Shown here: positions 36,342 through 47,963 of the stretch, piece after piece | Layout: each line of letters begins with the position of its first letter | How positions within the stretch are numbered: the first letter of the stretch is position 1 | Source: Sphingosinithalassobacter sp. CS137 | Lineage (GTDB): Bacteria; Pseudomonadota; Alphaproteobacteria; Sphingomonadales; Sphingomonadaceae | Assembly: GCF_014334115.1 (NCBI RefSeq) | Contig: NZ_CP060494.1 | Coordinates: forward strand, 2,448,501 to 2,512,500 | Length of the DNA: 64,000 bases | Direction of reading: 5' to 3' | The notes under the pieces: model-generated | Seen by the model: only the letters and a program-made list of their open reading frames with translations | What the model was told of the DNA's origin: nothing | Databases searched by the model: none | Translations under genes and position numbers: made by a program

Positions 36342-37223
36342 TCACTCGAGCGGCGGCGGCGCACCCATCGAGGGCGGCGGGGTTGCGGCGCTGGGTTTCA
36401 GCCACACGCGCCCGCGGGCAAGATCAAGCGTCACGGCCCAGTCGCGCAGGAACGGCATCCCGAGATTCCCGTCGATCACGAGTTCGGGGGTGAACATCAC
36501 GCCGCGCGCTTCGACGCCCTCGGCAATCGGAAATGCGCCCCGCTGCGGGCCAGGCGCCGCAGGGTCGAGCCCCAGCGCAGCAGCATAGGGTTTGGAGACG
36601 AGAATGGTGCCGCCGTTGCCACTGTCCAGCTCCATCGCCAGCGAGCCCCGCGCGCTGGGCACGTCGATATACACCGCCAAGGCCCGACCACCTACTTCGC
36701 GCGCGAGCCGCGCCGGCAACTCGATCGCACCGGAGACGCGTTCGGCCAGGCTTTCCGGCGTCTCGATGATGAGAGACAGCGCAGCGAAATCGATCGTGAT
36801 GGTCTGCCCGTCGAAGACGTCGAGCGCCAGCAACCCGTCGATCGGAGCGGCGTCGACGGCCATCAAGGACGTGGCATCGAGCACGCCCGCCACTGGCGCC
36901 TCGAGCCTGACGCCGTCCCACTCGATCGCAACGCGCTCGCAGCGGGGAAGCGTCAGGCGATCACCGGTCATGCGATGCCCGACGAGCGCTCCCCAAGGCT
37001 CGCACCCGGCAGCGCGCGCAATCTCGGGGGCGAGCACCGAGATGCCGCCCGCGGTATCGAACACCAGGAGCCGCTCGACACCGTCCAGCCGAACACGTGC
37101 CGCGACTCCCTTGCGATAGGGCTCGAGGCGCAGGACCTGTGGCTCGGCGACGGTGGGTTGCGGTTGCGCCAGCGACGGCGTGGCGAGAAGCGTCAGAAAA
37201 AGCGAAGCGAGGAAAAGGCGCAT
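36342..37223 (-). CDS. Exported retropepsin-like aspartyl protease
   Basis: 293 residues with a signal peptide (MRLFLASLFLTLLATPSLAQ, cleavage near residue 19). Two similar halves: the first has VFDTAGGISVLAPEIARAAG (a DTG-like site reading DTAG), the second MELDSGNGGTILVSKPYAAALGLD (DSGNGG). This two-lobed design resembles pepsin-like folds assembled within one chain, as in other bacterial periplasmic aspartyl-protease-like proteins. The first site has Ala in place of Gly after DT, so activity is uncertain. Ends in a Pro-rich tail. Upstream neighbour zapE is 46 bases away on the same strand. Confidence 0.75.
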   Translation of the reverse strand: MRLFLASLFLTLLATPSLAQPQPTVAEPQVLRLEPYRKGVAARVRLDGVERLLVFDTAGGISVLAPEIARAAGCEPWGALVGHRMTGDRLTLPRCERVAIEWDGVRLEAPVAGVLDATSLMAVDAAPIDGLLALDVFDGQTITIDFAALSLIIETPESLAERVSGAIELPARLAREVGGRALAVYIDVPSARGSLAMELDSGNGGTILVSKPYAAALGLDPAAPGPQRGAFPIAEGVEARGVMFTPELVIDGNLGMPFLRDWAVTLDLARGRVWLKPSAATPPPSMGAPPPLE

Positions 37224-38410: not shown

Positions 38411-38866
38411 TCACGAGGGCTTGCGCGACGGCTTGCGGATCAGCGCCGAAAAGCTCGCCACGCTCTCTTCGCCCTGGACGACGAGACCTCGCAGGAAAAG
38501 GAAGCGGCCGGTCTCGCGAGTCAGCTCGACGCGAGCCTCGACGACATGCTCGATGGGTGCGCCGGCGAGGAAATGCGTGGTCAGATCGACCGTCGAGGCG
38601 GGACCGCTTTCCAGCACGTCGAGCCCGCGCGCCGCCGCGAACAGGCAGATGTCGAGAAAGCCGAGCAGCGCGCCGCCATGGACATGGCCGCGAAGATTGG
38701 CGTGCCGTTCCTCCGCCTGCCAGCGAACCCGAGCGACACCTTCTTCGACGCGGACGCGCACCGGGCCGATGAAGCTGTTGAACAGCGACGACGCGGGAAG
38801 TTCCCACCGCTTCCAGCCCGGTGCGTCGGGATCGTCCTCGTAGCGGAAGCTGAACGGCTCGGTCAT
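38411..38866 (-). CDS. PaaI-family hotdog thioesterase
   Basis: 151 residues, single hotdog domain. HGGALLGFLDICLFAAARG carries the typical HGG motif with the conserved Asp of the catalytic helix, followed by STVDLTTHFLAGAPIEHVVEARVELTRETGRFLFLRGLV. Family members hydrolyse acyl- or aryl-CoA. ATG at 38866 (MTEPFSFRYEDDPDAPGW) is preferred to the GTG/TTG extensions. It lies between sdhB (43 bases upstream) and zapE. Confidence 0.85.
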   Translation of the reverse strand: MTEPFSFRYEDDPDAPGWKRWELPASSLFNSFIGPVRVRVEEGVARVRWQAEERHANLRGHVHGGALLGFLDICLFAAARGLDVLESGPASTVDLTTHFLAGAPIEHVVEARVELTRETGRFLFLRGLVVQGEESVASFSALIRKPSRKPS

Positions 38867-38909
38867 GGCGCAGCCGTTCGCCACACGCGAACCACGCAGG
38901 CTGCCAAGA

Positions 38910-39692
38910 TCAAAGCGCCCGCTCGGCTTCCAGCTTCTTGATCTCGGCGATCGCCTTGGCGGGGTTGAGGCCCTTGGGGCAGACGTTCGCGCAGTTCATG
39001 ATCGTGTGGCAGCGATAGAGGCGGAACGGATCCTCGAGCGCGTCGAGCCGCTCGCCGGTCATCTCGTCGCGGCTGTCGGCGAGCCAGCGATAGGCCTGGA
39101 GCAGGATCGCCGGTCCGAGGAAACGGTCGGAGTTCCACCAGTAGCTGGGGCAGGCGGTCGAGCAGCAGGCGCACAGGATGCACTCGTACAGTCCGTCCAG
39201 CTTCTCGCGCTGTTCGGGGCTCTGCAGCCGCTCCTTGCCCGACGGCGTGGTCGAAACCGTCTTCAGCCAGGGCTGGATCGAGGCGTATTGCGCATAGAAA
39301 TGGGTGAAATCGGGGACGAGATCCTTGATCACTTCCATGTGCGGCAGCGGCGTGATGCGGATCTCGCCGGAAATGTCCTCGATTGCGGTAGTGCAGGCAA
39401 GGCCGTTCTTGCCGTCCATGTTCATCGAACAGGAGCCGCAGATGCCTTCGCGGCACGAGCGGCGGAAGGTGAGGCTCGGATCCTGGTCCGACTTGATCTT
39501 GATGAGCGCGTCCAGAACCATCGGGCCGCAATCGTCGAGATCGACGTGAAACGTGTCGTATCGCGGGTTTGCGCCGCTGTCGGGATCGTAGCGGTAGATC
39601 TTGAACTTCTTGATCCGGCCGCCGGTGGTCGGCCCGTCGAACTTCTTGCCTGCCTTGATCTTGCTGTTCTTGGGCAGGAAAAAATCGGCCAT
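38910..39692 (-). CDS. sdhB: Succinate dehydrogenase iron-sulfur subunit
   Basis: 260-residue electron-transfer subunit of complex [23 protein letters not shown] binds the 2Fe-2S centre; [16 protein letters not shown] and [17 protein letters not shown] bind the 4Fe-4S and 3Fe-4S centres. ATG at 39692 gives [18 protein letters not shown]. Unusually, the gene is not adjacent to sdhA: a 2.2-kb protease cassette with its own terminators lies between them, so sdhB probably has its own promoter. Confidence 0.97.
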
Positions 39693-39711
39693 GATGCGTC
39701 CCGTTGCTGAT

Positions 39712-39733
39712 GGGCGCCGCATGGGCGGCGCCC
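39712..39733. other. Stem-loop in the sdhB leader
   Basis: Perfect nine-base stem GGGCGCCGC / GCGGCGCCC with a short loop, 20 bases before the sdhB start codon. It could affect translation of sdhB or mark the 5-prime end of its message. Confidence 0.35.
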
Positions 39734-39775
39734 GGATTCACATGGCCGATACATGAGCGCGGCATCAGTTTCAAA

Positions 39776-39808
39776 CAAGGAGCGACAGTTGCGCGCTATC
39801 GCTCCTTG
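39776..39808 (-). terminator. Candidate terminator of the protease cassette
   Basis: On the minus strand a ten-base stem CAAGGAGCGA / TCGCTCCTTG with a 13-base loop is followed by TTTGAAACT. It lies 61 bases beyond the stop of the 53-residue membrane peptide and before sdhB, so it would end the protease-cassette message. Confidence 0.5.
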
Positions 39809-39869
39809 CCCTGTCCCTGTCCGTCGGCGTTCCGCCCCCATTCGAGGTTGCGCGCGAATGATGTGCCGC

Positions 39870-40031
39870 TCAGGTTCGATGAAGCAGGATCAGCGCGAGC
39901 ATCGCCGACGCCCCCGCGACGAATCCTGCCGCATGAGCGGCCTTTCTCGTGCGTGAGGAAACCGGCGCACGCAGGGCCTCGCGAAAACCCGCGCGCAGCT
40001 GTGCCGACCGGGACGGCGGATCACGCTCCAC
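39870..40031 (-). CDS. 53-residue membrane peptide of the protease cassette
   Basis: GTG start preceded by AAAAGGAG five bases away, 12 bases after the stop of the ClpP-like gene, so clearly the third gene of the cassette. The first 30 residues are basic (MERDPPSRSAQLRAG, then SSRTRKAAHA), the last 20 form one membrane segment (AGFVAGASAMLALILL), giving an N-in single-pass peptide ending HRT. No family is recognised. It may anchor, inhibit or be a substrate of the neighbouring proteases. Confidence 0.65.
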   Translation of the reverse strand: MERDPPSRSAQLRAGFREALRAPVSSRTRKAAHAAGFVAGASAMLALILLHRT

Positions 40032-40043
40032 ACCAACTCCTTT

Positions 40044-40997
40044 TCAGATCACGTCGAGCACGAGACCCTTTTCGCGCGCTTCCTCTGCCGAGATGTACCA
40101 GTTCTCCGGCGCACGGCTGCGCACTTCGTCGAAATCGATCTTCGATCCGCGCACCAGATCGCGGAACCCCTCTTCCTCGATTCGCACGCTGTGCTCGATC
40201 TCGTGGAGCTTGGCGCGGAGCGTCGCGGTGAGCGTCTTGAGCGGGCCCGACAGGTTGATCGTGCTCGTCATGACCCGCTCGTGGATCATGATCCGGGTGC
40301 CCTTGGTGAGGAAGCGCTTCTCGACCGGGAAGGCGGCCATGAAGGTCGCACCCGCCGAATAGACCGCGACCTTGCCGAGGAACAGGATCTCGCGCCCGCT
40401 ATATTCGCGCAGCAGCCGCACTTCGTCGCCCATCAGCCGCGCCACTTCGGGATCGCCGCCCAGCGTGGAGATGGCGATCACCAGCGTGCCCTCGTCGGGT
40501 GCCGCCTGCAGCTGCTCGCGAAAGCTGCCGTACATGGCGTGATCGACCGTTCCCGAGAGATGGATGTGCGGCTCGGCGAGCAGTGGATACTCGCGGGCGC
40601 GGCTGTCTTCGCCGGCTTCCTGTCCGGCGGCGGGAGCGGGGGACGGCGGGGGCGTGCCGCCGGAGGGTGCGGGCGTCTGATCCGTGTTCATGGCAGTCGC
40701 AACTGCTCCTGTGCGGGAGAGTTCCAGGGAAGCGGCCGGGGAAGGCGGCTGTGCGGCAAGCGCTTCGGGTGGGCGGGTGCGCTCGACCGCACGGCGCTCC
40801 GCACGGCGCTCCTCGCGCCGTTGCAGCATTCGCCGGACCACGAACGCGAAGCCGACCGCGATCAGCAGCGCGAGCCCGGCCTGGACGAAGCGGTTGCGCA
40901 ATCCGCCGGGCAGCGCGCGCCGCATCGCCGCCGGGACGGTGCGTTCGAGATCGCCGGGGATCAACCGTGCGACGAGCGATTGCTGCTGCTCCGCCAT
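40044..40997 (-). CDS. Membrane-anchored ClpP-like protease or pseudoprotease
   Basis: 317 residues: one membrane segment (residues 39-55), a highly basic stretch (RRMLQRREERRAERRAVERTR), a Pro/Ala-rich linker to about residue 135, then a ClpP-fold domain. Ser214 in VAVYSAGATFM and His239 in TRIMIHERV align with ClpP Ser97 and His122; the third residue, Asp171 before 'RFLSA' in ClpP, aligns by eye with Asn299 in ENWYISAEEAREKGLV. Oxyanion-type GGD is at 180-182. So two triad residues remain and the third is changed. ATG at 40997 has GAGG upstream, nine bases after the peptidase C13 stop, indicating an operon. An ATG at residue 103 would give a soluble form, but its ribosome site is poorly spaced. 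Confidence 0.78.
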   Translation of the reverse strand: MAEQQQSLVARLIPGDLERTVPAAMRRALPGGLRNRFVQAGLALLIAVGFAFVVRRMLQRREERRAERRAVERTRPPEALAAQPPSPAASLELSRTGAVATAMNTDQTPAPSGGTPPPSPAPAAGQEAGEDSRAREYPLLAEPHIHLSGTVDHAMYGSFREQLQAAPDEGTLVIAISTLGGDPEVARLMGDEVRLLREYSGREILFLGKVAVYSAGATFMAAFPVEKRFLTKGTRIMIHERVMTSTINLSGPLKTLTATLRAKLHEIEHSVRIEEEGFRDLVRGSKIDFDEVRSRAPENWYISAEEAREKGLVLDVI

Positions 40998-41006
40998 GCC
41001 GCCGCC

Positions 41007-42023
41007 TCAGTGTCCGGCCGCCGCGGGCAGCGATTCGATTGCCGGGCGGCCGACCGGTTCGCTCGCGGCGGGAGGCATGCGGGCTTCGAGTGGAGCGAGC
41101 CAGGCGGCGACGCCGCTGCCGATGCTCAGCTGGGGCTTCGACGCTTCGAGACCGGCGTCGGCCTCCCATTGCGCGATCGTGCGCCGGGCGGTCTCGGCGG
41201 CTTCGCCGAGCGGCCGGGGTTCGCGCAATGCGCGGTTGATCGCCGCGTCGCCGAAGAAGGTCCAGTCATTTTCGGCCAGGCAGCCGAACGACGGGCGCTG
41301 CGACGAGGCGGCGGTGAGGATCGCAGTCGTGTCGCTCGCCAGCGCGGGGACGAAGATGCCCGAATAGCAGGCGCTGAGGATCAGCAGCCGGTTGCGGATG
41401 CCGAGCTCGTCGAGCAGCGCCCGGAGCCGCAACGGCGACACGAAGCCATAGCCCTGGTCGCCATCGTGATAGGCTAGGCCGAAGCGCGCGCCATGGCTGG
41501 TGGTGTAGAGGACCAGCACGTCCTCGGCCGGGTCCATGCGCTCGGCAATGGTGGCGAGCGCCAGCGCCAGTGCCTGGGGCGTGCCCATCGGCAGCGCGTC
41601 GGCGGTGCGCCCGTCGCTGCCGGCGAGCAACACCGTGCGCCCTTCGGCGTCGTACCGCCGGGCGAGCACGCGCGCCGCCTCGCGCGCCTCGCGCCCGAAC
41701 ACGGGATCGCTGTCGAGCCCGGCGACGAGGACATAGGCGTCGACCGTGCCGCGCCGCTGAGGCGCGACCGCGGCGAGCGCGGAGTCGAGCCGCCGATGCT
41801 GATCGAGCAGCCATTGCGCCGAGCGCCCGCGCTCGAAGTGCGGCCCGGCATCGACACTCGCCTGGATTTCGGTTCGGCTGCCCTCCGCGAGCAGCCTGGG
41901 CCAGTCGAGCCGGTGCTCGGGCGCGGCCTGGGCGCCGGCGGGCGGAGCGGGCTGGGCCGCCACGGGAAACTGGAGCGCGAGCAGCGCCACCGGCGCCGCC
42001 ATCCATCCGATCAGCCGTCGCAT
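41007..42023 (-). CDS. Peptidase C13 (legumain/caspase-like) family protein, exported
   Basis: 338 residues with a signal peptide (MRRLIGWMAAPVALLALQFPVAAQ). Catalytic pair of clan CD is visible: His177 in VLYTTSHGARFGL and Cys219 in LLILSACYSGIF, separated by the expected distance. A second conserved block AENDWTFFGDAAINRAL follows. C13-type bacterial proteins are found in many proteobacteria, function mostly unknown. ATG at 42023 has GGGGGG seven bases upstream; longer starts have none. First gene of the cassette; translated just before the ClpP-like gene. Confidence 0.82.
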   Translation of the reverse strand: MRRLIGWMAAPVALLALQFPVAAQPAPPAGAQAAPEHRLDWPRLLAEGSRTEIQASVDAGPHFERGRSAQWLLDQHRRLDSALAAVAPQRRGTVDAYVLVAGLDSDPVFGREAREAARVLARRYDAEGRTVLLAGSDGRTADALPMGTPQALALALATIAERMDPAEDVLVLYTTSHGARFGLAYHDGDQGYGFVSPLRLRALLDELGIRNRLLILSACYSGIFVPALASDTTAILTAASSQRPSFGCLAENDWTFFGDAAINRALREPRPLGEAAETARRTIAQWEADAGLEASKPQLSIGSGVAAWLAPLEARMPPAASEPVGRPAIESLPAAAGH

Positions 42024-42374
42024 CGCGCAGCCCCCCTGTGCCGAGTCCCCGGGAAGCTGGAGTGTTGCGCTGACGCCCGCCGAGTCAAGCGGCGCGCGGA
42101 TCGGCGGGCGCTCGATTCGGGACCGGCACTCGGCGGCAGGCAAACCCGCGGTTTTCCGTCGAAGGTCGCACTAAAGTCGCACCTCAACGCGCGCGTGCGA
42201 GGGACGGAGCAGGAAGCAGCGGTGCGGCGGGGGAAGGGAAGAGGCGCAGAGTGGGCCACGTGCGAAGCTTGGCACAAATCGGTAGCTGTAGGACAGCGCC
42301 GACTTCGCGGCGGAGCGGAATCGACCGAAGCCGCCCGTCTGCGATCCTGCCTTCCAACCCTCTGGCCGCCAATG
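42024..42374. other. Gap without genes upstream of the protease cassette
   Basis: About 350 bases between the sdhA terminator and the C13 peptidase start. The open frames inside it have no protein-like pattern or ribosome site. It must hold the cassette's promoter, but no convincing -35/-10 pair is visible. The long gap contrasts with the tight spacing elsewhere in the block. Confidence 0.6.
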
Positions 42375-42406
42375 AAAAGGGGCGCGAAGCCGTGCCTCGC
42401 GCCCCC
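42375..42406 (-). terminator. Rho-independent terminator after sdhA
   Basis: Minus strand: nine-base stem GGGGCGCGA / TCGCGCCCC with a nine-base loop, followed by TTTT, 24 bases after the sdhA stop. It separates sdhCDA from the protease cassette. Confidence 0.78.
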
Positions 42407-42429
42407 GGATTTCCGCCGCTGACGCAGCC

Positions 42430-44232
42430 TCAGTACACCCGCTTCTTCGGCTCGATATACTCAACGTCGTCGGTCAGCGTGTATTCGTGGACCGGGCGAT
42501 AGTCGATCGCGGTGGTGCCGCTCTTGCCGCCCCAGCCGTCGAACGTCGCGATCGTGTGCTTCATCCAGTTGGCGTCGTCGCGTTCGGGGAAGTCCTCGTG
42601 CATGTGCGCACCGCGGCTTTCCTTGCGGTTTTCGGCCGAGCGGATCGTCACCAGCGCCTGGGCGAGCAGATTGTCGAGCTCGAGCGTTTCGACCAGATCG
42701 GTGTTCCAGATCAGGCTGCGGTCGGTGACGTGGACGTCCTGCATCCGCGCATAGACCTGTTCCATCAGCGTGACGCCTTCGCTGAGCAGCGCCGAATCGC
42801 GGAAGACGGCGGCGTGGCGCTGCATCGTCTTCTGCATGTCGGCGCGGATCGCCGCGGTGGGCGAGCCGCCACTGGCGTTGCGGAAGCCGTCGAGCCGCGT
42901 GAGCGCGACTTCCTCCGAGCCCTTGGGCAGCGCATCGTGCGCGGTGCCGGGCTTCAGCGTCTCCTTGAGGCGCAGGCCGGTCGCACGGCCGAACACAACG
43001 AGGTCGATCAGCGAGTTCGAGCCGAGGCGATTGGCGCCATGGACCGAGACGCACGCGGCTTCGCCGACCGCGAACAGGCCGGGGACAATTGCGTCGGGGT
43101 TGCCGTCGCGCGGGGCGACGACTTCGCCGTGATAATTCGTCGGGATGCCGCCCATATTGTAGTGAACGGTCGGCACCACCGGCAGCGGCTGGCGCGTCAG
43201 ATCGACGCCGGCGAAGATCTTGCCGGTTTCGGTGATGCCGGGCAGGCGCTCGGCCAGGATCTTGGGATCGATGTGGTTCAAGTGAAGGAAGATATGATCC
43301 TTCTCCTTGCCCACGCCGCGGCCTTCGCGGATTTCCATCGCCATCGAGCGCGAGACGACGTCGCGGCTGGCGAGATCCTTGGCCGAGGGGGCATAGCGCT
43401 CCATGAAGCGCTCGCCCTCGGAATTGGTGAGATAGCCGCCCTCGCCGCGGGCGCCTTCGGTGATGAGCACGCCCGCGCCGTAGATGCCGGTGGGGTGGAA
43501 CTGGACGAACTCCATGTCCTGGAGCGGCAGGCCGGCGCGCAGCACCATGGCGTTGCCGTCACCGGTGCAGGTGTGCGCCGAGGTGGCCGAATGATAGACG
43601 CGGCCGTAGCCGCCGGTCGCGAGGACGACGGCGTGGCTGCGGAAGCGGTGGATCGATCCGTCCTCGAGGCACAGCGCGATCACGCCGCGGCACGCGCCGT
43701 TTTCCATGATCAGATCGAGCGCGAAATATTCGATGAAGAAGTCCGCGTCATACTTCAGGCTCTGCTGGTAGAGCGCGTGGAGCATCGCGTGGCCGGTGCG
43801 ATCGGCGGCGGCGCAGGTGCGCTGCACCGGCGGGCCGGCGCCCATGTTCTGCATGTGGCCGCCGAACGGACGCTGATAGATCGTCCCGTTCTCGTTGCGG
43901 CTGAACGGCACGCCGGCGTGCTCGAGCTCATAGACCGCCTGAGGCGCCTCGCGGCAGAGATATTCGATCGCGTCCTGGTCGCCCAGCCAGTCGGAGCCCT
44001 TGACCGTGTCGTACATGTGCCACGACCAGTGATCGGGCGTGTTGTTGCCCAGCGAGGCGGCGATGCCGCCCTGCGCCGCCACGGTGTGGCTGCGGGTGGG
44101 GAACACCTTGGTGATGCACGCGGTCTTGAGGCCGGCCTCGGCGCTGCCCATGGTCGCGCGCAGGCCCGATCCGCCCGCGCCCACCACGACCGTGTCGTAG
44201 GTGTGGTCGATGATCTTGTACGCTTCGGGCAT
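42430..44232 (-). CDS. sdhA: Succinate dehydrogenase flavoprotein subunit
   Basis: 600-residue catalytic subunit of complex II with covalent [15 protein letters not shown] is the dinucleotide motif, [17 protein letters not shown] carries the FAD-linked His, and [21 protein letters not shown] and [22 protein letters not shown] complete the active site. Start codon overlaps the sdhD stop by one base. Followed by a strong terminator rather than by sdhB. Confidence 0.98.
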
Positions 44233-45039: not shown

Positions 45040-45208
45040 ATCCGGGTTCCTTTCGGGTCGACGCGCCTACTTAGACGGCAGGCGAGCGGATGCAAGCCGG
45101 ATCGGCGCCTCGCTGGATAACGCGGCCTTAACCAGTGCGCGCCTAGGCCGTGTCGTGGCGCCGCATGCGTTCCGGCGAATGCCGCGCCTTCTGGGAGACC
45201 GACGTTCC

Positions 45209-46579
45209 GTGACCAAGATGCCCGCTTCAAAGGACCTGCCGCCCGCCGGCACGATGAGCAGCCGGATCGATATCCGCGCGCGGCTGCGCGTGTTCGACTT
45301 CGATGGATCGCTGATCACGCGCGCGCGCGACGTGTGGGAGGTGCTGGAGCCCGAGATCCGCGACGTTTCCGAAGCCTATTGGCAGCAATGGCTGCGCTGC
45401 TTCGCCGACCAGCGCGACTGGGCGCCGCACGAAACCGAGAAGATGATCGAGCTGGGCAGCGTCTTCCTGCGCCATCGCTTCCTCGACACATCGGGTGCGG
45501 CATGGATCGAATCGATCGAACGGTCGGTCGCCGCCGCCTATGCCGAGGACGTGCCGCCGATGGCGCTGCTTTCGATGATCAACGCCAGCGATCGCGCCGC
45601 GCTCGAGATCCTGATGCGGCGGATGGAAGCGGGCGAACCGGAGCTGCTTCAGCGAATCGACACGCTGATGCGCCTCTCCGCGCTGGAGAGCGACATCACC
45701 GTCGAGATCTACAACATGTATCGCGAGCACAGCGCGCAGGTGGCGCGGGACCGGCTCGCGTCCGAATTCCGCGATTCAATCGGGCTGACGGTGGAGCGCG
45801 CCTCGCGCGAAGGCGATGCGCTGCGCGAGCAGGCAGTGCACACCTCCGCCTCTGCACGCGGGATGCTGGGCAAGACCAGCGAAGTGGCGGCGGCGGCGGA
45901 ACAGTCGGCGGTGGCGATGCGCGAGGCGGCGCAGACCGCGGCGGGGCTGATCCGCGCGATCGAGGATGCGCGCGGCGAAGTCGAGGCGGCCGCCGAGATC
46001 GCGACGCGGGCGGCCGGGCAGGCGGGCGAGGCGGTCGGCATGTCCGAGACGCTGAGCGACCACGCCAAGTCGATCGAATCGATCCTGGGGCTGATCCGCG
46101 ACATCGCCGGACAGACCAATTTGCTGGCGCTCAACGCGACGATCGAAGCGGCGCGAGCCGGCGACGCCGGCCGCGGCTTCGCCGTGGTCGCGCAGGAAGT
46201 GAAGAGCCTCGCCAGTCAGACGGCGCGCGCCACCGATGACATCGCGGCGAAGATCGCGGCAATCCAGTCGGCGACCAAATCGACGGTCGACAAGAACGCG
46301 TCGATCCGGACAACCGTTTCGGAAGTGCAGGAGAGCGCATTGCGCATCCGCACGGCAATGGAAGTGCAGGCGCAGACGGTGACCGCAATCACCGCGGCGG
46401 TCGACGAGACCGCGCTTGCAGCGGATTCGATGTCGGCGACGATCGGCGCGATTCGCGAGGATACTGAATCGGTCGCCAGCGAGATCGACCGAGTGGGCCA
46501 GGGCTTCGCCACGCTCGACGGACAACTCGGCAGCCTGAAGGGCAGCGCGGGCGACTTCGTCGCGAAGGTGGCCGCCTGA
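45209..46579 (+). CDS. Soluble methyl-accepting chemotaxis-like protein with globin-type sensor (copy 1)
   Basis: About 456 residues, no membrane segment and no HAMP domain. The N-terminal 170 residues are all-helical with the pattern of a protoglobin sensor ([22 protein letters not shown], then [19 protein letters not shown], whose His could be the haem ligand by position). The C-terminal half is a signalling coil with the hairpin tip [38 protein letters not shown] that binds CheA/CheW. The start is uncertain: GTG at 45209 has GGGAG 11 bases before it, ATGs at 45218 and 45254 are alternatives. Followed by a paralogue 16 bases later. No che or flagellar genes are in the window. Confidence 0.82.
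45861..46460 (+). repeat. Near-identical signalling-domain segment, copy 1
   Basis: About 600 bases of the first receptor gene are repeated without any insertion or deletion at 47245-47844 (constant offset 1384 bases). Long tracts are identical, including most synonymous positions (for example GGATGCTGGGCAAGACCAGC and the stretch around ATTTGCTGGCGCTCAACG). The flanking sensor-coding halves are only distantly alike. Confidence 0.9.
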
Positions 46580-46595: not shown

Positions 46596-47963
46596 ATGGC
46601 ACGCCAGAGCTATCAGCTGGGGCGCTGGAGCGGCGACAGCCGCGCGCACGAGGCGCATCTGCGCGATTATGACTGGGACGGACGGCTCAGCGCCGGTTGC
46701 GCGGAGATCGCCGAGCTTCTGCACGGCCATTATGGAGACATCGCCAGCAGCTTCTGGAGACATTATCTTTCGCTGCCGATGACCGCGCGCGTGAAGAGCT
46801 GGTTCGACGAAGCGCGGCTGGCGGAGCAGATCGCCGACAGCTCGCGCTACACCAAGGCGAAATTCGAAAAGCCCTATGCACCCGAATGGGCGGAAATCGC
46901 ATCGCGCCACGCCGAGATGACGCATCGCGCGCGGGTGCCGCTCGCGGCGATCCTCGCCGCCTTCGCCGCCGCCCACAGCCGCACCGTCAATCTGCTCGCG
47001 GAGAAACTGCCCGACGATCCGGTGCGGCTCGCCCGGCTGTGCGACGTGGTCCAGCGACTCGCGATGGCCGAGGCCGATCTGATGGCCTCGCATCTGGGCA
47101 AGCGCGACGCCGACCAGGCTGACGAGGAACGGCGGCAGCGCTCGGGGGAGTTCCGCGCGAGCATCGCCGAATCGATCGAAGGGACGACCGGGCTGGGGAA
47201 ACGCATCCGAGTGCAGGCACAGGGCGCTTCGGCTTCGGCTCAGGGGATGCTGGGCAAGACCAGCGAAGTCGCGGCGGCGGCGGAACAGTCGGCGGTGGCG
47301 ATGCGCGAGGCGGCGCAAACCGCGGCCGGGCTGATCCGCGCGATCGAGGATGCGCGCGGCGAAGTCGAAGCGGCCGCCGAAATCGCGACGCGGGCGGCCG
47401 GGCAGGCGACCGAAGCGGTCGGCATGTCCGAAACGCTGAGCGACCACGCCAAATCGATCGAATCGATCCTGGGGCTGATCCGCGACATCGCGGGGCAGAC
47501 CAATTTGCTGGCGCTCAACGCGACGATCGAAGCGGCGCGAGCCGGCGACGCCGGCCGCGGCTTCGCGGTGGTGGCACAGGAAGTGAAGAGCCTCGCCAGT
47601 CAGACGGCGCGCGCGACCGACGACATCGCGGCCCAGATCGCGGCGATCCAGTCGGCGACAAAGTCGACGGTCGACACCAATGCGTCGATCCGCTCGACCG
47701 TCCACGAGGTGCAGGAAAGCGCCGACCGGATCCGGGCGGCAATGGAAATGCAGGCGCAGACCGTGACCGCCATCACTGCCGCCGTCGACGAGACCGCGCT
47801 GGCGGCGGATTCGATGTCCGACACGATCGGCGCGATCCGCGAGGACACCAAGAACGTGACCGGCGAGATCGATATGCTGCAGCGCGAGTTCGCCGAAGTG
47901 GACGACCGGCTGACTCGACTGCGCGAAGCGGCGGAGAGTTTCTCGAACTCGGTCGCGGCCTGA
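46596..47963 (+). CDS. Soluble methyl-accepting chemotaxis-like protein with globin-type sensor (copy 2)
   Basis: 455 residues, no membrane segment. The N-terminal sensor (residues 20-175) is helical and globin-like in layout ([26 protein letters not shown], then [27 protein letters not shown]) but distinct from copy 1. The signalling half is almost identical to copy 1 down to the DNA level. The two diverge again at the extreme C-terminus (here [26 protein letters not shown]). GAGAGGAACGG lies before the ATG, and the gap to copy 1 is 16 bases, so both are made from one message. The pair may sense two different ligands and share one output. Confidence 0.85.
47245..47844 (+). repeat. Near-identical signalling-domain segment, copy 2
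   Basis: Counterpart of 45861-46460 in the second receptor gene. The boundary is sharp at the 5-prime side (GGGATGCTGGGCAAG) and gradual on the 3-prime side after GAGGAYAC. This pattern fits gene conversion or a recent partial duplication limited to the output domain. Confidence 0.9.

Follow-up and report, generated by a model that had tools for sequence, protein, structure and literature searches.

This report concerns two predicted peptidase genes located among the succinate dehydrogenase genes of Sphingosinithalassobacter sp. CS137, in a 64,000-nucleotide (nt) stretch of contig NZ_CP060494.1 (the window, in whose numbering positions are given). The gene order, read on the minus strand, is sdhC-sdhD-sdhA-C13-ClpP-like-(53-residue open reading frame, ORF)-sdhB. 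The genes for the C13 (legumain-fold) peptidase and the ClpP-like protein are probably independent, old occupants of the variable stretch that separates sdhCDA from sdhB in this bacterial family, and not a co-selected protease module, with the C13 peptidase in the periplasm and the ClpP-like protein facing the cytoplasm. The tight spacing in one genome resembled a cassette, and a first-pass annotation had proposed a self-contained protease cassette. This was rejected on the grounds of co-occurrence, gene order, predicted compartments and the lack of a conserved third gene, and the comparison of genomes leads to two separately inherited genes. The interest that is left lies in an atypical, sdh-linked ClpP homologue.

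Distribution and order of the C13 and ClpP-like genes

The C13 gene was found in 21 and the ClpP-like gene in 31 of 37 same-genus genomes, that of the window included. Both genes are present in 17 of these genomes, C13 only in 4, the ClpP-like gene only in 14 and neither in 2 (Fisher test, p 0.68). The C13 count leaves out G033 (36% identity, at another locus), G007 and G027 (weak partial matches) and also weak secondary matches in genomes already counted. When only the 31 genomes that are at least 95% complete are considered, the corresponding numbers are 16, 2, 13 and 0 (p 0.50). Seven intervals that have no C13 gene (L083, L087, L088, L089, L092, L093 and L094) contain no common gene in its place, only assorted, mostly small ORFs.

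A similar result was obtained at larger distances. In 182 genomes of the order outside the genus, both genes are present in 2, C13 only in 19, the ClpP-like gene only in 9 and neither in 152 (p 0.62), and in both of the genomes that have the two genes these are on different contigs. In a sample of 289 genomes of the class, C13 matches were found in 24 and ClpP-like matches in 6, and both only in the genome of the window. The first-pass annotation was to be given up if the order of C13, ClpP-like gene and small ORF were not conserved beyond close relatives; no linked C13-ClpP pair was found outside the genus, either among the 182 genomes or in the class sample. The two genes are gained and lost separately, though they are possibly co-transcribed where both persist.

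Several observations weigh against this reading. In the whole order sample of 196 genomes, genus included, the numbers are 7, 21, 14 and 154 (p 0.016), a nominal enrichment of genomes with both genes; four divergent partial matches (G158, G159, G213 and G229) were retained among the 28 genomes counted as having C13 here, and the 14 same-genus genomes were read from match listings that do not contain all match-less genomes. All the Fisher tests treat genomes as independent, with no correction for phylogeny. Of the 17 same-genus genomes with both genes, 16 have them next to each other on one strand with C13 first, the exception being G028 with the genes on different contigs, and C13 lies directly before the ClpP-like gene in 26 of 26 named loci that contain it. 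The order is kept wherever the two genes sit side by side in the genus, and the tight coupling of the pair in the window, as claimed earlier, holds. Overlaps of -634 and -298 in the named loci and of -638 in G002 look like alignment or frame artefacts. The adjacency and the short gaps, along with C13 being followed by a terminator-like site in none of the 26 named loci that contain it, are also what a functional but dispensable pair would show. In addition, the topology of the ClpP-like protein described below is predicted from hydropathy and charge, and its link to the sdh genes is perhaps a simple inheritance of gene order.

The two predicted peptidases

The C13 gene (positions 41007-42023 from the ATG, minus strand) codes for 338 residues with a signal-like N-terminus, and its product is predicted to be periplasmic; export and compartment are predictions from hydropathy and charge. 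The sequence scores 52.7 bits against PF01650, for which the curated cut-off is 22.8. All 19 aligned sequences have both His177 (41493-41495, minus strand) and Cys219 (41367-41369, minus strand). The identity of the enzyme and its two catalytic residues, as named in the first-pass annotation, are borne out by these results. Among the best 120 of 2290 homologues, the patterns His-Gly and SAC[YF]SG are present in all 120 and a hydrophobic stretch within the first 45 residues in 110.

The structure model of the C13 protein (pLDDT 77.9) has a legumain-type caspase-like fold and aligns best with legumain-type enzymes, followed by metacaspases, GPI transamidase and caspases. The protein is distant from the characterized members of the C13 family (legumain or asparaginyl endopeptidase and the catalytic subunit of GPI transamidase; clan CD). 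The identity in structural alignments is only about 9-19%, the legumain-type match spans only residues 91-332, and by sequence profile legumains are matched only at E 0.05 or weaker. The fold, the dyad and the signal sequence, each predicted or shown, describe a putative exported legumain-fold cysteine endopeptidase, and its role would most likely be the trimming of envelope proteins in the periplasm. A cleavage preference for Asn/Asp is given for the C13 family in a passage of a published report (PMC12445089).

The ClpP-like gene (positions 40044-40997, minus strand) codes for 317 residues, comprising an N-terminal membrane segment, a linker and an S14-type domain. Its score against PF00574 (Peptidase S14) is 29.7 bits with a cut-off of 20.2, in agreement with the ClpP fold assigned earlier. 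Ser214 (40356-40358), His239 (40281-40283) and Asn299 (40101-40103, all minus strand) show no variation across the 19 aligned sequences. By pattern, the Ser motif is found in 118 and the His motif in all of the 120 homologues listed, and the third residue of the triad is Asn in 118 and Thr in 2. The catalytic Asp is thus replaced by Asn. The protein is also outside ATP-dependent ClpP proper, since the best NCBIfam ClpP score is 36 bits (NF009205) with a cut-off of 228. An axial N-terminal segment and an Asp-Arg pair before the third triad residue are traits of ATP-dependent ClpP proper. In an alignment with canonical ClpP, which did not include the window protein, all 9 short homologues lack both; in the window protein, A-P-E precedes Asn299.

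It is useful to compare this protein with known ClpPs. In the PDB, the ClpP-like profile matches 4jcq best, though weakly (E 3.7e-7, 33.1 bits); 4jcq and 4jcr we take to be Listeria monocytogenes ClpP1, which is consistent with the literature passage on this enzyme. In 4jcq, an Asn occupies the same alignment column as the Asn of the ClpP-like family. However, the family has an insertion of 8 residues after the His, and its Asn is preceded by A-P-x where 4jcq has Asp-Arg. The Ser-His-Asn triad of Listeria ClpP1, and the presence of Asn at the third position in some accepted ClpPs, are described in a passage of PMC12900304. The genome of the window also codes for one canonical ClpP (G000 C1:970273-970812), beside a ClpX-like gene as read from the translation. 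The canonical ClpP has the domain family and the Ser and His columns in common with the ClpP-like family, but the identity is 21-26%, its third residue is Asp instead of Asn, and the ClpP-like family differs from it by the insertion after the His and the replacement of the Asp-Arg pair. The ClpP-like protein would be a natural Ser-His-Asn relative of ClpP that could be used for probing the need of Asp.

A hydropathy scan of the window protein predicts a membrane segment at residues 36-54 (40836-40892, minus strand), with 9 Lys/Arg in the 20 residues after the segment and 4 in the 20 before it. A flank rich in Lys/Arg is cytoplasmic according to the positive-inside rule, and because of this bias the ClpP-like domain is predicted to face the cytoplasm. 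Such a segment is present in 30 of 117 scored homologues, in 29 of which the C-terminal flank has more Lys/Arg; three of the 120 were left unscored for lack of a YPLL-type motif. In the other 87, hydropathy gives no segment, and 82 of these have only 6-46 residues before the domain, while 5 have long N-termini (111-121 residues) in which a segment might have been missed. The term "membrane-anchored", used in the first-pass annotation, is suitable for the protein of the window genome, but in the family it applies to a minority only. In the window genome, the protein would be a cytoplasm-facing S14 homologue tethered to the inner membrane, most likely a low-activity or assembly-dependent peptidase near this membrane. 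The gene linkage suggests that it perhaps acts on Sdh subunits.

The small ORF and the transcription signals

The gaps of 9 and 12 bases between the supposed cassette genes, reported earlier, are present in the sequence. The last of these genes, the 53-residue ORF (39870-40031, minus strand), had been described as a membrane peptide. A good ribosome-site-like AAGGAG precedes its GTG start, as read from the sequence, but its status as a gene is doubtful. No relatives were found in 40 fetched regions at E 1e-3 (some of which do not span the gap between the ClpP-like gene and sdhB) or in 80 named ClpP loci at E 1e-4; the large protein database was not searched. The codon score of -0.14 is below the 5th percentile for true frames (0.11) and falls in the range of antisense frames. 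The third-position GC is 0.69, compared with 0.81-0.90 in neighbouring genes. In G011 and G082, which have similar membrane-anchored ClpP-like proteins, the gap between the ClpP-like gene and sdhB is 91 and 67 nt, respectively, which leaves no room for this ORF. Perhaps it is restricted to one lineage, or it is no gene at all.

The intrinsic terminator reported right behind sdhA is real (42378-42406, minus strand). It has a 13-pair stem with a T-rich tail and a folding energy of -26.8 kcal/mol (z -5.1). The total of terminator-like sites, 3 in the 4 kb scanned and 2.1 expected from shuffles, is near chance. A terminator-like hairpin within 110 nt behind sdhA was found in 23 of 65 named relatives, versus 0.01 in shuffles; a scan with other settings gave 6 of 35 genomes. 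The hairpin upstream of sdhB (39776-39808, minus strand), the other boundary in the first-pass annotation, has a stable fold (-24.2 kcal/mol, z -5.2), but it has no T run and was not called by the terminator scan. After the ClpP-like gene, a terminator-like site was found in 1 of 80 named loci. No sigma-70-type promoter was found in positions 38800-42800 by a scan that is uninformative for this bacterial group. In genomes of the genus with both genes, C13 may be transcribed together with the ClpP-like gene.

The sdhA-sdhB interval, its possible explanations and neighbouring genes

The interval is bordered on the left by sdhA (42430-44232, minus strand; flavoprotein subunit, TIGR01816 with 952.9 bits and a cut-off of 727.35) and on the right by sdhB (38910-39722, minus strand; iron-sulfur subunit, PF13085 and NF004616). 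The separation of sdhCDA from sdhB by the C13 and ClpP-like genes was noted before, and the order is confirmed. This split is unusual, because in all 24 genomes that represent other families of the order sdhA and sdhB are at most 0.8 kb apart, in 21 of them within about 110 bp as read from match tables; in G045, one of these 24, sdhB is split by contig ends. Within the genus, 24 genomes have sdhA and sdhB in one region. The genes are adjacent only in G016; besides it and the window there are 22 genomes, with an interval of 1.4-5.8 kb. The cargo is varied and includes genes for CreD, DUF389, PemK/MazF-like and ParE-like toxins, GIY-YIG and others. The contigs that carry sdhA and sdhB differ in G002, G017, G023, G025 and G028, and G008 has both on a single contig with about 1.1 Mb between them. 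This suggests repeated separation of the sdh genes in the genus, and some apparent separations could be draft contig ends.

In other genera of the family, sdhB is found with ZapE in 13 of 13 genomes, and in 10 of these with a PaaI-like gene too; sdhA was not found near sdhB within the 1.5 kb flanks in any of the 13. The C13 gene was located behind sdhA by 0.2-1.1 kb, with no ClpP-like neighbour, in 5 of the 14 loci fetched (from 21 genomes with C13 outside the genus). The ClpP-like gene is convergent to sdhA, 1.6-4.0 kb off, in 7 of 11 loci (all 11 fetched), in genomes that have no C13. The region downstream of sdhA in other genera (L132-L145, L161 and L162) also contains several genes of envelope or protease type, namely for a cyclophilin, an M56/BlaR1 peptidase and a neutral zinc peptidase (one example each, by Pfam) and CreD-like genes (by reading). 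A lipoprotein-like family with an HExxH-type motif is located near or directly after sdhA at L133 (6287-7318), L045 (interval 11-883) and L093 (interval 172-1047); for the copy in L045, Pfam gave no match at 0.001.

The closest named homologues of the two peptidases are from Sphingomonas and Stakelama. The named ClpP-like loci are the best-scoring 80 of 314, a sample biased to close relatives, and 72 of them were left when 8 loci with short flanks were excluded. Within 6 kb, sdhA and/or sdhB is present in 71 of the 72 and C13 in 24. When sdhB is downstream (61 loci), the ClpP-like gene lies less than 200 nt before it in 40. These numbers and the proximity to sdhB show that the association of the ClpP-like gene with sdh is steadier than that with C13. 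Distance correlations over 33 genomes gave rho values of 0.48 for SdhB-ClpP, 0.44 for SdhB-ZapE, 0.50 for ClpP-ZapE, 0.39 for C13-ClpP and 0.13 for SdhA-SdhB. These values are as expected from the shared inheritance of neighbours, and no pair is singled out.

Three other explanations were considered beside that of separate residents. The proteins could form one envelope proteolysis or stress module, in which a periplasmic C13 enzyme works with a membrane-bound serine-type partner and a small membrane protein. The tight spacing in the window, the terminator upstream and the constant adjacency of the pair in the genus and in the named loci fit this proposal, but the presence of one gene is not associated with that of the other inside or outside the genus, no linked pair is found beyond it, and the third gene has no relatives found and atypical codon use. 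A complex of the three is also unlikely, as the predicted location is periplasmic for the C13 protein and cytoplasmic for the ClpP-like domain. We regard the module, as proposed in the first-pass annotation, as very improbable. It is a much more serious possibility, though short of probable, that the gap between sdhA and sdhB is a tolerated insertion site open by chance, and that the two proteins are unrelated to sdh or to each other. Many unrelated genes, including those of toxin-antitoxin type, are found in the same gap, and in several genomes sdhA and sdhB are on different contigs or far apart. Against such hitch-hiking, most genomes with a separated sdhA and sdhB have the ClpP-like gene with one of them, and it is near sdhA in the 7 loci of other genera mentioned above.

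A further possibility is a role dedicated to sdh, in which the ClpP-like protein would handle Sdh subunits on the cytoplasmic side of the membrane, as a Clp-type peptidase or as a check on assembly, and C13 would be incidental. Both this explanation and hitch-hiking are compatible with the anatomical part of the reading as separate residents. The dedicated role would agree with the 71 of 72 loci near sdh genes, with the short distance to sdhB, which is also seen in genomes without sdhA in the fetched region, with L203, L212, L220 and L227, where the ClpP-like gene is the next gene after sdhA at about 110-180 nt, and with the SdhB-ClpP correlation. However, this correlation is similar to those that involve ZapE, as expected from simple vertical inheritance. 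No ClpP-like match was found in G003 and G004 (100% and 99% complete), although both contain sdhA and sdhB, and 4 of 11 ClpP loci outside the genus have no sdhA within about 5 kb. A terminator-like hairpin is found behind sdhA in 23 of 65 named loci, and in L203, L212 and L220 one lies before the ClpP-like gene. A dedicated role is judged unlikely. The more specific proposal, that sphingomonads have a dedicated cytoplasm-facing Ser-His-Asn ClpP homologue functionally tied to succinate dehydrogenase, is quite improbable; the sdh locus would then code for a Clp-type protease of quality control or assembly, held at the membrane beside complex II in some lineages. An Sdh-related role of some kind is possible, and the evidence fits it as well as hitch-hiking in an open slot.

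If the link to sdh is functional, the ClpP-like protein would be a bacterial protease tied to the assembly or turnover of complex II. We know of no such bacterial protease, and none was recognised among the results listed by searches of open-licence PMC papers, judged by title and abstract start; among these results, no recognisable paper on a C13-ClpP pair or on a ClpP-like gene at an sdh locus was found either. An anti-phage defence system was also considered and rejected, with no PADLOC match at E 0.01 for the C13 or the ClpP-like protein.

Two observations were made nearby. A protein with a signal-like N-terminus is encoded at 36342-37223 (minus strand), with zapE upstream of it and mdh, on the same strand, downstream. 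It has an FDTAGG-like motif, which we take as a sign of a retropepsin-type aspartyl protease, a candidate only, named with no family search. Two neighbouring chemotaxis-receptor-like genes (45155-46579 and 46596-47963, plus strand) have, as read from their translations, near-identical signalling halves and different N-terminal halves, a pattern that would be expected after tandem duplication and gene conversion.

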